From positions 1 through 64,000 of the forward strand of contig JALEMG010000050.1 of assembly GCA_022768375.1 (NCBI GenBank): DNA of 64,000 nucleotides, in the 5' to 3' direction. Source of the stretch: Lentisphaeria bacterium (GTDB lineage Bacteria; Verrucomicrobiota; Lentisphaeria; Victivallales; Victivallaceae). The translations under genes and the position numbers were made by a program. The notes beneath the pieces are model-generated. The model worked only from the letters and a program-made list of their open reading frames with translations, made no database searches and was not told the DNA's origin. Position 1 is the first letter of the stretch. Each line of letters begins with the position of its first letter. Of the stretch, positions 3 to 56,280 are shown in pieces.

Positions 3-302
3 TTAAACCGAGTCGCCATTCATTTCACCCGTCGGGTTGAGTTTATCCATGTCTCGAAACACATACATAATATACTGCGACTCAACATCTTTTTCTTCTA
101 TTTTATCGTCGATTTCACCAATTATTTCACGGATTCAGGAAGAAAGTAACGCAGTCGCCTTTTCTTGTCTTACTTCTTTTCCCGCGAGAAAAGAAGTAAG
201 GATCACGTCCGGGTAGCACCCGGTGGCAGATTACTTTTTTATTTTTCAGTCCTCTTTTAGTACAGAGCCATATTGTTTAACAAACCTAAAAGCCTTCTTC
301 AT
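3..302 (-). pseudogene. small gene broken by a miniature transposon-like repeat
   Basis: An ATG at 302 with an AGGAG-type ribosome site and a good promoter opens a frame that reads MKKAFRFVKQY and then runs straight into the terminal repeat of the mobile element at 269. Beyond the element, positions 134-3 carry an open, charged 43-codon tail (contains EIDDKIEEKD and ends GEMNGDSV) in the same orientation with its own stop. The simplest reading is one small gene split by the insertion and by loss of the element's distal end. The product is not recognised. The surviving 5' frame now ends inside the element after 18 codons, so the gene is probably dead. Joining the two halves is inference; the start, the repeat end and the open tail are visible. 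Confidence 0.5.
139..269 (-). repeat. truncated copy (A) of the 257-bp miniature inverted-repeat element
   Basis: The right end is TTTTAGTACAGAGCC (255-269), identical to the terminal repeat of the complete copy at 55997-56253. It is followed inward by the CACCCGG-containing hairpin and the long palindrome built on CTTACTTCTTTTC. The opposite end, which should carry the other terminal repeat, is missing: similarity fades near position 139 inside the second hairpin. Orientation is opposite to the copies at 21.9 and 56.0 kb. Confidence 0.8.
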
Positions 303-21887: not shown

Positions 21888-21894
21888 AAAAAGA

Positions 21895-22150
21895 GTCTCT
21901 GTGCCAAAAGAGAACTGAAAAATAAAGAATCCTGCCACCGGGTGCTGCCCGGACGTGATCCAGCGTCTTACTTCTTTTCTCGCGGGAAAAGAAGTAAGAC
22001 AAGAAAAGGCGACAACGTTACTTTCTTTCACAAAAGAAAGTAACCAAAGAAAGGGCGGGGTTGCTTGTCCGCCATAGCCCTGGCGACGGCGGAAGCGGAA
22101 GGCGGTCGACCGCATGGAACGGAAAATCAGGCAATGTTGAGTACAAAGCC
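21895..22150 (+). mobile_element. full-length miniature inverted-repeat element (copy B, 256 bp)
   Basis: It aligns over its whole length with the copy at 55997-56253 in the same orientation. The terminal repeats have drifted (GTCTCTGTGCCAAAAGAG at the left, TTGAGTACAAAGCC at the right), and no target duplication remains, indicating an older insertion. Both internal palindromes are intact. It fills the gap between the peptidase gene and the antiporter promoter and encodes no protein. Confidence 0.85.
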
Positions 22151-43203: not shown

Positions 43204-43532
43204 TGCCTCCCGCTTCCGCCGTCGCCGAGGCTATGGCGGACAGGCAACGCCGCACCTTTCTTTGGTTACTTTCTTTTGTGAAAGAAAGTAACGCTGTCGC
43301 CTTTTCTTGTCTTACTTCTTTTCCCGCAAGAGCGGCAACGTGCCGCCGCAAGATAACGGCCCGGCTCCGTTGTCGCCGGTCCGGTTTGCATTCCCCGCGT
43401 TTTCTTTGGTTACTTTCTTTTGCGAAAGAAAGTAACGTAGTCGCCTTTTCTTGTCTTACTTCTTTTCCCGCGAGAAAAGAAGTAAGACGCTGGACCACGT
43501 CCGGGCAGCACCCGGTGGCAGATTTTTTTTAT
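43204..43532 (-). repeat. composite of two partial copies of the miniature element (copy C)
   Basis: In reverse orientation, a partial unit (about 43204-43330: CCGCTTCCGCCGTCGCC, then the GTTACTTTCTTTTG hairpin and half of the CTTACTTC palindrome) is followed by unrelated sequence and a second partial unit (about 43408-43532: GTTACTTTC hairpin, complete CTTACTTCTTTTC palindrome, CAGCACCCGG hairpin). Neither retains a clear terminal repeat. The rest of 43157-43545 contains no gene; open frames here are translations of the repeat. Confidence 0.75.
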
Positions 43533-43545
43533 TTTTCGGGTATTT

Positions 43546-53222: not shown

Positions 53223-55940
53223 ATGACGAAGAAGAAGTATGTGTACACGTTCGGCGGCGGCCGTACCGAGGGCGAGGGAGCGATGAAAAACCTCCTCGGC
53301 GGCAAGGGCGCCAATCTGGCGGAAATGGCCAACCTCGGACTGCCGGTCCCTCCGGGATTCACCGTCAGCACCGAGTGCTGCGTGGATTACTTCAAAAACG
53401 GCAATCAACTGCCCGACGGAGTGGAAGCGGAAATCAACCGGGCGCTGAAGCACATTGAAAACAGCATGGGCATGACCTTCGGTTCTCCCGAGAACCCGTT
53501 GCTGGTCTCCTGCCGTTCCGGCGCCCGCAGCAGCATGCCCGGCATGATGGAGACCGTGCTCAACGTCGGCCTGTCGACCCGGACCATTCCCGGACTGATC
53601 GCCAAAACCGGCAACGAGCGGTTCGTCTATGACGCCTACCGGCGGCTCATCATGATGTACAGCGACGTGGTCATGGAGAAAGCCGAGGGCATCGAACCGG
53701 CCGAGGGTCAGGCCATCCGCCGCCAGTTGGACGGGATCATGGACGAGGTCAAGGCCGCCAAAGGCTATCAGTACGACACCGACCTCACCGTCGCCGATCT
53801 GAAAGCGCTGTGCGACGTTTTCAAGGCCAAGATCAAGGAAGTGCTGGGCAAGGAGTTCCCCGACGATCCCATGGACCAGTTGTACGGCGGCATCGGCGCG
53901 GTGCTGAAAAGTTGGAACGGCAAAAAGGCCGTGGCCTACCGCCGCATCGAGGGCATTCCCGATGACTGGGGGACCGCGGTGAACGTGCAGAGCATGGTTT
54001 TCGGCAACATGGGCGACACCAGCGCCACCGGCGTGGCGTTCACCCGCGATCCGGCCACCGGCGACAACAAGTTCTACGGCGAGTGGCTCATCAACGCGCA
54101 GGGCGAGGACGTGGTGGCCGGCACCCGGACTCCGAACCCGCTCAACAACGACACCTGCAACGAGCAGAATAAGCACCTCAAATCCATGGAGGAACTCTAT
54201 CCGGCTCTCTATCAGGAACTTTTCGCCATCCGCAACACGCTGGAAGCCCACTACCACGATATGCTGGACATCGAGTTCACCATTCAGGAGGGCAAACTTT
54301 TCATGCTCCAGTGCCGGGTCGGGAAACGCACCGGCACCGCCGCGCTCACCATGGCGATGGACATGCTGGACGAGAAACTGATCGACGAGAAGACCGCGGT
54401 GCTCCGGGTCATGCCCAACCAGTTGGACGAACTGCTCCACCCGATCCTCGACGTCAAGGCCGAGGAGGAGGCCATGCTCCGGGGCGAAGTCATCGCCAAG
54501 GGGCTTCCCGCCGGTCCCGGCGGCGCGGTGGGAAAAATCTGCTTCACCTGCGATGAAGTCGTCGCCGCCGCGGCAAAAGGCGAAAAGGTCATCCTCGTAC
54601 GCGAGGAGACCAATCCCGAAGACGTCGAAGGCATGCGCGGCGCCAGCGGCATTCTCACCGCCCGCGGCGGCATGACCAGTCACGCGGCCCTCGTCTGCCG
54701 CGGCTGGGGCAAGTGCTGCATCGTCGGCGCCGGTTCGCTGATCATCGACGAGAAAAACGGCATCCTCAAAGTCGGCGGCAAAGTGCTCAAGCGCGGCGAC
54801 ATGCTCAGTCTCAACGGCAGCCGCGGCTACGTCTACGAGGGCGCGCTGCCGACGATGGATTCCAGTGAAAACAAGAAACTGCAGCGCTTCATGGCGCTGG
54901 CGGACAAATTCCGCCGTCTCGGGGTCCGGGCCAACGCCGACACCCCGGAGGACGCCCGGGTCGCCCGCGCTTTCGGCGCGGAAGGCATCGGCCTGTTCCG
55001 GACGGAGCACATGTTCTACGGGAAAAACAGTGAAAAGCCGCTTTTCTACCTGCGCAAGATGATCCTTGCCAACAGCACCGCCGAGCGGGAGAACGCGCTC
55101 GCCGAACTCTATCCCTACATGAAAGCCAGTGTCAAGGACACGCTGCTGGCCATGCAGGGCCTGCCGGTGACGTTCCGTCTGCTGGACCCGCCGCTGCACG
55201 AGTTCGTCCCGGAGGAGAGCATCAAGCGGCGGGAACTGGCCGACGCGCTGGGCATCACCCCGGACGAGATCGACAAACGGGCGGAAACTCTGCACGAGAA
55301 CAACCCGATGATGGGGCACCGCGGCGTGCGCCTCGGCATCACCTATCCGGAAATCTCCCGCGCCCAGATGAAAGCGATCCTGGAAGCGGCGGTGGAGGTC
55401 GGTAACTGCGTGCCGGAGATCATGGTCCCGGTGACCTGCGACGTGAGCGAACTCAAACTCCAGAAGGAGATCCTCGCGGAAGTCGCCAGAGAGGTCGCGG
55501 AGACCCACGGCCGGGACAAAGTTTCCTACAAACTCGGTTCGATGATCGAGATCCCCCGGGCCGCGCTGCTGGCCGACCAGATGGCGGAGGTGGCGGAGTT
55601 CTTCAGTTTCGGCACCAACGACCTGACGCAGATGACGTTCGGCTTCAGCCGGGACGACATCGGGGCGTTCCTGCCGGATTATCTCTGCAAGAAACTGCTG
55701 GATTCCGACCCTTTCCAGACGATCGACACCAAAGGCGTCGGACGGCTCATCGAATTCGCGGTGGAGGGCGGCCGCAAGACCCGCCCGGAACTCAAGATCG
55801 GCATCTGCGGCGAGCAGGGCGGCGAACCCAAGTCCGTGGCCTTCTGCCACGCGGCGGGGCTGAACTACGTCTCCTGCAGTCCCTTCCGGGTGCCGCTGGC
55901 GCGGCTCGCGGCGGCGCAGGCGGCCATTCAGCAGGGCTGA
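53223..55940 (+). CDS. ppdK: pyruvate, phosphate dikinase
   Basis: A 905-aa enzyme interconverting pyruvate, ATP and phosphate with phosphoenolpyruvate, AMP and pyrophosphate. The N-terminal ATP-grasp domain includes LLGGKGANLAEM and SCRSGARSSMPGMMETVLNVG; the phosphohistidine domain contains H487 in GGMTSHAALVCRGWGKCC; the C-terminal PEP/pyruvate barrel contains LFRTEHMF, FGTNDLTQM and the proton-donor cysteine region near GICGEQGG. Full length matches bacterial PPDK. Depending on conditions it serves glycolysis or gluconeogenesis. GGAAAGGAAAAAG upstream gives a good ribosome site. Confidence 0.98.
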   Translation: MTKKKYVYTFGGGRTEGEGAMKNLLGGKGANLAEMANLGLPVPPGFTVSTECCVDYFKNGNQLPDGVEAEINRALKHIENSMGMTFGSPENPLLVSCRSGARSSMPGMMETVLNVGLSTRTIPGLIAKTGNERFVYDAYRRLIMMYSDVVMEKAEGIEPAEGQAIRRQLDGIMDEVKAAKGYQYDTDLTVADLKALCDVFKAKIKEVLGKEFPDDPMDQLYGGIGAVLKSWNGKKAVAYRRIEGIPDDWGTAVNVQSMVFGNMGDTSATGVAFTRDPATGDNKFYGEWLINAQGEDVVAGTRTPNPLNNDTCNEQNKHLKSMEELYPALYQELFAIRNTLEAHYHDMLDIEFTIQEGKLFMLQCRVGKRTGTAALTMAMDMLDEKLIDEKTAVLRVMPNQLDELLHPILDVKAEEEAMLRGEVIAKGLPAGPGGAVGKICFTCDEVVAAAAKGEKVILVREETNPEDVEGMRGASGILTARGGMTSHAALVCRGWGKCCIVGAGSLIIDEKNGILKVGGKVLKRGDMLSLNGSRGYVYEGALPTMDSSENKKLQRFMALADKFRRLGVRANADTPEDARVARAFGAEGIGLFRTEHMFYGKNSEKPLFYLRKMILANSTAERENALAELYPYMKASVKDTLLAMQGLPVTFRLLDPPLHEFVPEESIKRRELADALGITPDEIDKRAETLHENNPMMGHRGVRLGITYPEISRAQMKAILEAAVEVGNCVPEIMVPVTCDVSELKLQKEILAEVAREVAETHGRDKVSYKLGSMIEIPRAALLADQMAEVAEFFSFGTNDLTQMTFGFSRDDIGAFLPDYLCKKLLDSDPFQTIDTKGVGRLIEFAVEGGRKTRPELKIGICGEQGGEPKSVAFCHAAGLNYVSCSPFRVPLARLAAAQAAIQQG

Positions 55941-55955
55941 AGCGGCGCGTCACTC

Positions 55956-55993
55956 AAAAACCGGCACGGCACATCGCCGCGCCGGTTTTTTTT
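55956..55993 (+). terminator. intrinsic terminator after ppdK
   Basis: Stem AAAAACCGGC...GCCGGTTTTT with inner CGGC/GCCG pairing and ACATC loop, followed by a long T-run. The T-run is also the insertion site of the adjoining element. Confidence 0.85.
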
Positions 55994-55996
55994 ATA

Positions 55997-56253
55997 GGCT
56001 CTGTACTAAAAGAGGACTGAAAAAAAAGTAATCTGCCACCGGGTGCTACCCGGACGTGGTCCAGCGTCTTACTTCTTTTCTCGCGGGAAAAGAAGTAAGA
56101 CAAGAAAAGGCGACAACGTTACTTTCTTTCGCAAAAGAAAGTAACCAAAGAAAGGGCGGGGTTGCTTGTCCGCCATAGCCTTGGCGACGGCGGAAGCGGG
56201 AGGCGGCTAATCGCACGGAACAGAAAATCAGGTTTCTTTTTTAGTACAGAGCC
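55997..56253 (+). mobile_element. complete miniature inverted-repeat element (copy D, 257 bp) with 8-bp target duplication
   Basis: Left end GGCTCTGTACTAAAA (55997-56011), right end TTTTAGTACAGAGCC (56239-56253): perfect 15-bp inverted repeats. Directly outside, TTTTTATA at 55989-55996 and again at 56254-56261 is an exact 8-bp target duplication. Inside are a 14-bp stem palindrome (56067-56100, TCTTACTTCTTTTC arm), a 12-bp stem palindrome (56118-56145, GTTACTTTCTTT arm) and a smaller CCGGGTGCTACCCGG hairpin. No transposase; a non-autonomous element moved in trans (inference). Confidence 0.92.
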
Positions 56254-56280
56254 TTTTTATATTGCTTCAGCGTAAAAAAA

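Follow-up and report, generated by a model that had tools for sequence, protein, structure and literature searches.

A modular, BOX-like miniature transposon family of Lentisphaeria that carries a possibly new structured-RNA repeat

A 257-bp non-coding element (positions 55997-56253) lies in the 3′ region of ppdK, within a window that comprises the whole 64,000-nucleotide stretch of DNA analysed here. It is in sense orientation relative to ppdK, whose stop codon is found 56 bp upstream and whose product is a 76% match to Victivallis, which suggests a host among the Lentisphaeria; the stop codon of a convergent ORF follows 27 bp beyond the element. Its GC content is 49%, compared with 62% for the window, and the longest ORF inside it encodes 56 amino acids, with none of transposase size. 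The locus is organised as follows.

53223..55940, plus strand: ppdK (pyruvate phosphate dikinase), the upstream gene, with the element in its 3′ region
55956..55994, plus strand: ppdK terminator, an inverted repeat with its T-run, intact after the insertion
55989..55996, no strand: left 8-bp target duplication TTTTTATA, the end of the ppdK terminator T-run; duplications of 8 bp are the rule in the family
CCGGTTTTTTTTATA^TTGCTTCAG: insertion point
55997..56011, plus strand: left terminal inverted repeat GGCTCTGTACTAAAA, 18 bp long with one mismatch
56020..56027, plus strand: A-rich tract; nearly all relatives also have it ahead of their structured part
56031..56066, plus strand: kept left part of the order-wide structured core; its hairpin CCGGGTGCTACCCGG (56039-56053) is core helix 1
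56066..56101, plus strand: palindrome D1 (GTCTTACTTCTTTTC..), part of a module that is tandem, with a period of about 148 bp, in other copies
56118..56155, plus strand: palindrome D2 plus tail (GTTACTTTCTTT..AAAGAAAGTAACCAAAGAAAGG); a similar hairpin and tail occur in other phyla
56164..56197, plus strand: module F, hairpin TTGTCCGCCATAGCCTTGGCGACGGCGGAA, with further copies in this genome and in those of related species
56196..56232, plus strand: kept right flank of the structured core (AGCGGGAGGCGGCTAATCGCACGGAACAGAAAATCAGG)
56239..56253, minus strand: right terminal inverted repeat, inverse of the left end
56254..56261, no strand: right 8-bp target duplication TTTTTATA, an exact match to the left copy

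The first 15 bp of the element, GGCTCTGTACTAAAA at 55997-56011, recur as an exact inverse at 56239-56253, and the 8-bp TTTTTATA at 55989-55996 is found again at 56254-56261, just as an earlier note on this DNA had claimed for the perfect ends and the target duplication; allowing one mismatch extends the terminal inverted repeat to 18 bp. The two long palindromes described there are located at 56066-56101 and 56118-56145, and the strong structure that it expected is reflected in an RNA folding energy of −111.3 kcal/mol, against −72.7 ± 4.8 for shuffled sequences (z −8.1). Its further proposal, a landing in the T-run of the ppdK terminator, agrees with a GC stem and T-run at 55956-55994, in terminator position, whose bulged plus-strand stem was missed by a mechanical terminator scan. 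The terminator is still intact because the T-run itself supplied the duplicated target.

The search for further copies with the same ends, which had been named as the check to make, revealed both end-like sites and dozens of related copies in the genome. With up to two mismatches, the end sequence occurs at 33 genomic sites, compared with 5 for the reversed control, and a search with the element returned 127 matching pieces at dozens of places, four of them inside the window. Related copies in the same window include:

140..269, minus strand: a copy that has been cut down
21894..22131, plus strand: a copy with the same interior and decayed ends
43205..43534, minus strand: a copy with a tandem palindrome module and no inverted ends

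The sister species G016 has younger copies, whose ends are near-identical and whose A/T-rich duplications are perfect, and independent copies in five other species also have perfect 8-bp duplications. In a longer form of 25 bp, GGCT[C/G]TGTACTAAA[A/C/T]ATTGACTGAT, the end recurs at 44 to 116 sites in each of G086, G092, G066 and G101, four species in three other genera of the same family, with zero control hits. The flanks of 30 complete elements, drawn from six species, match at 8/8 positions in 17 cases (0.0 for shuffled flank pairs) and at 7/8 or more in 22 (0.49 for shuffled pairs), and exact matches peak solely at length 8. There is thus good support for transposition by a DDE enzyme that makes an 8-bp staggered cut. 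A chance match of the flanks, the outcome that was to refute the transposon reading, is ruled out by the copy counts, the duplications in other species and the flank shuffling. With terminal inverted repeats, a target duplication, a short length devoid of a transposase gene and many copies per genome, the feature in the window is a real, non-autonomous miniature transposon (MITE). In G092, G086 and G066 many copies are no more than about 250 bp away from the end of a contig; since the elements break assemblies in this way, copy numbers are lower bounds.

The interior of the element is modular, with copies that have element positions 1-70 and 199-257 in common and differ in the middle. One class of interior consists of two palindromes and module F, as in the window copy, and the palindrome module is repeated in other copies with a period near 148 bp; the second class contains a core of about 165 nt with six hairpins. 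The window copy retains only the edges of this core, the helix 1 hairpin and the right flank, and D1, D2 and hairpin F take the place of its middle.

The core was first aligned over G000, G016 and G101 and then, as alignment A2, over six species. Run on A1, a raw MAFFT alignment, RNAalifold missed most helices because the stems were out of register; all six helices of the core in A2 were recovered with a hand-designed structure together with a covariance model. Two-sided, pair-keeping changes fill 52 cells of A2, compared with 17.2 ± 2.9 after shuffling and 3-18 when the partners are slid. The covariance model R1, run over 387 genomes of the phylum, matched 32: 10 in the element's own genus, 13 in other genera of its family, 8 in other families of the order and 1 further genome in the class, with none beyond the class; the core is thus present in 31 genomes of the order and one of the class, where it also occurs without transposon ends. 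In A3, which holds 105 distinct matches and, unlike A2, was fitted to the model structure, two-sided changes affect 40/40 pairs and 528 cells, against 119 after shuffling. This pattern of substitution indicates that the base pairs of the core are maintained by compensatory change across a bacterial order. Rfam contains no match to the core at curated scores, and below these only hits at chance level. G-U outnumbers A-C in core cells by 124 to 62, an excess of only 2:1 that leans towards RNA read from the sense strand and is also compatible with single-stranded DNA. In the near-complete genome G075, at least four copies of the core are arranged in tandem with a 223-bp period (L342, G075:C1:1472168-1473013).

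The core is also placed non-randomly with respect to genes. Of 48 cores, counted outside the transposon-bearing set of the element's own genome, 24 have a frame of at least 100 codons on the same strand that stops no more than 60 nt upstream, compared with 5/48 on the opposite side and 12% at random positions, figures that are approximate, given the mechanical calling of ORFs and the shortness of several loci. Cores that sit behind stop codons without transposon ends are exemplified by L331, L333, L344 and L345, as well as L341 and L346. A preference of MITE insertion itself for the sense orientation was tested and is unsupported by the complete transposon copies, which display no such bias. 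As the core is biased and the transposon copies are not, the core is associated with gene 3′ ends independently of them. We infer that transposon ends carried it in some lineages, where they would have captured it as cargo; at the 3′ ends of transcripts, it would act as a folded RNA in stability or termination.

These observations also bear on a rival account, in which an order-wide structured element of 3′-UTRs lies at the heart of the system, the terminal repeats are a secondary capture in this species, and recombination or some other route accounts for much of the spread. The many species that have the core without transposon ends, its enrichment in sense orientation after stop codons (24/48 versus 5/48, and 12% at random) and its tandem arrays in G075 all speak for such an account; however, the window copy has intact ends and a duplication, and the young copies of G016 and G101, with perfect duplications and no orientation bias, moved as transposons. 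On balance, we regard it as a serious contender that falls somewhat short of probable. More tentatively, the six-hairpin core could be a new class of functional RNA of the order, one that works at message 3′ ends and spreads in two ways, on MITE ends and by a pathway that leaves it directly behind stop codons.

Regarding the transposase that moves the MITE, the earlier note considered the duplication compatible with the IS6, ISL3 and IS1595 types, which it could not separate; of these, IS1595/IS1016 agrees best in ends and target preference. ISApl4, which belongs to the IS1595 family, carries GGGGCTGTACTAGA as its end, and among its A/T-rich 8-bp repeats are AAAAAAAA and TTTTATAA (PMC12561309). 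The end of the element is identical to that of ISApl4 at 11/14 positions and its target preference is the same (PMC12561309). The IS1595 family is known for 8-bp duplications, and its eukaryotic Merlin kin have a terminal GG (PMC8101967). Both marks of the IS1595 type, A/T-rich 8-bp duplications and ends that begin with GG, are found in the element. By virtue of the ISApl4 end and repeats, the 8-bp duplications of the family and the terminal GG of Merlin, IS1595/IS1016 is the best candidate, and judged from these ends and targets the MITE is likely moved in trans by an enzyme of this type. A DDE transposase supplied from elsewhere would recognise the GGCT[C/G]TGTACTAAA end, cut an A/T-rich target with an 8-bp stagger and insert the element, and repair of the staggered cut would generate the duplication; the enzyme would most likely be of the IS1595/IS1016 kind.

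Searches for the IS1595 (DDE_Tnp_IS1595, PF12762), Y1 and IS6 domains found no transposase in the MAG that contains the element. Likewise, no autonomous partner with the same ends was detected in the limited number of loci that were read across 197 genomes of the class, the end-to-end pairs of relatives searched for an autonomous IS contained none, and the 25-bp end has no match in IMG/VR. This absence is weak evidence because MAGs lose repeats, and an IS could be missing since the assemblies break at copies, many of which are at contig ends. Three IS1595 copies are present in the family, and their ends, ACTGGG.. in two cases, are unlike those of the element: the IS1595-type elements L250 (G100) and L251 (G093) terminate in ACTGGG(G)TATCC, and L250 has TAAATTTA on either side. 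A fragment in G016 (L203:2398-2780; G016:C18:6397) has one fitting end, behind which the interior is of a different kind; despite its IS-like look, no transposase was recognised inside. Its first 114 bases were found again in G086 and G092, so the fragment may represent a further class of interior or what is left of the autonomous element; a match to it in G081 (L206) adjoins an unrelated rve transposase and was dropped.

It is unlikely that the ends derive instead from an IS6 or ISL3 element whose enzyme moves the MITE. These two types also produce 8-bp duplications, and their ends start with GG and are similar to GGCTCTGT/GGCTCTTT. However, none of ten bearing or related genomes, nor the element's own MAG, has a match to the IS6 transposase (PF13610), and the 11/14 agreement with the ISApl4 end GGGGCTGTACTAGA, together with its A/T-rich 8-bp repeats, points to IS1595 (PMC12561309).

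The palindromes have a distribution of their own. Look-alikes of the D2 hairpin GTTACTTTCTTT..AAAGAAAGTAACCAAAGAAAGG were found at 19 places on one Caballeronia replicon, in Variovorax, Ilyobacter and Clostridia, and in several IMG/VR contigs (loci L276, L277, L278, L279, L262, L263, L266 and L270). Single matches are weak, with E-values of 0.006 to 0.9; among the exact matches to a tail-bearing 17-mer, several also have the complementary 5′ arm, a combination hardly to be expected by chance. The hairpin seems common to Lentisphaeria, Betaproteobacteria, Fusobacteriota and Clostridia, and some replicons contain it many times. Within the collection of papers searched, none contained the D2 string, phage and plasmid collections contained no relative of the whole element, and neither palindrome was found in E. 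coli genomes. D1 is located at gene 3′ ends in L159, L161, L163 and L166 (G001, G008, G004 and G007), where, by eye, it appears to lengthen the reading frame, adding a tail such as LTSFREEKK with the stop codon in the 3′ arm, much as Rickettsia palindromic elements do; in L159 (G001:C52:9056-9601), a tandem palindrome module with a period near 91 bp lies behind a gene. That the flanks and ends match by chance, or that a REP/BIME-type repeat was moved by a Y1 (RAYT) transposase, is highly improbable and, for the whole element (D2 alone aside), excluded by the flank statistics: the palindromes do look like REP-like hairpins, but the genome has no Y1 transposase domain (0 matches to PF01797), Y1 elements are not known to leave an 8-bp duplication such as the one present here, and the 8/8 match is absent from shuffled flanks.

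In summary, we hold with high confidence that the locus contains a MITE with a modular interior and a probable IS1595-type partner, and that many members of its family carry a structured core. A many-copy, modular MITE family, new and BOX-like in character and carrying what is possibly a new structured-RNA repeat, is now documented in a poorly studied bacterial order. MITE folds are often regarded as by-products of the ends, whereas much of the cargo described here is under strong structural selection. Should the core be a working 3′-end RNA, a mobile element would be linked to the fate of messages at many genes per genome, and the covariance model would offer a ready means of probing for a new RNA family. 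Follow-up is most worthwhile for the structured core that recurs across the order; the palindrome that resembles repeats of other phyla raises the separate question of how such hairpins spread.

Several known systems resemble parts of this one. ERIC, RUP and Correia, as described in PMC3049150, are likewise structured small mobile repeats able to affect transcripts; no relationship to the present family is known. MITEAba12 is also short, geneless, flanked by A/T-rich duplications and, as is likely here, moved in trans, but it is uniform, with a length of 113 bp, 9-bp duplications and a known partner (PMC6382973). The end GG..CTGTACTA.A is common to the family and to ISApl4, an IS1595-family, IS1016-group element, and both have 8-bp duplications rich in A/T (PMC12561309); the family differs in having no transposase gene, in 3/14 end positions and in that no autonomous partner was seen. 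BrickBuilt of Porphyromonas gingivalis is a MITE whose leader and tail surround inner tandem repeats (PMC4596501), which consist of a 23-nt minisatellite there and of a 148-bp palindrome module or a six-hairpin core here. Pneumococcal BOX elements are small interspersed repeats too, modular and strongly folded, with ends, target duplications and a variable number of inner modules (Croucher 2011, PMC3049150). The likeness to BOX and BrickBuilt is one of architecture and working, with no homology claimed: compared with BOX, the ends, the modules and the host phylum are different, and the core described here also occurs without ends and recurs across an order.
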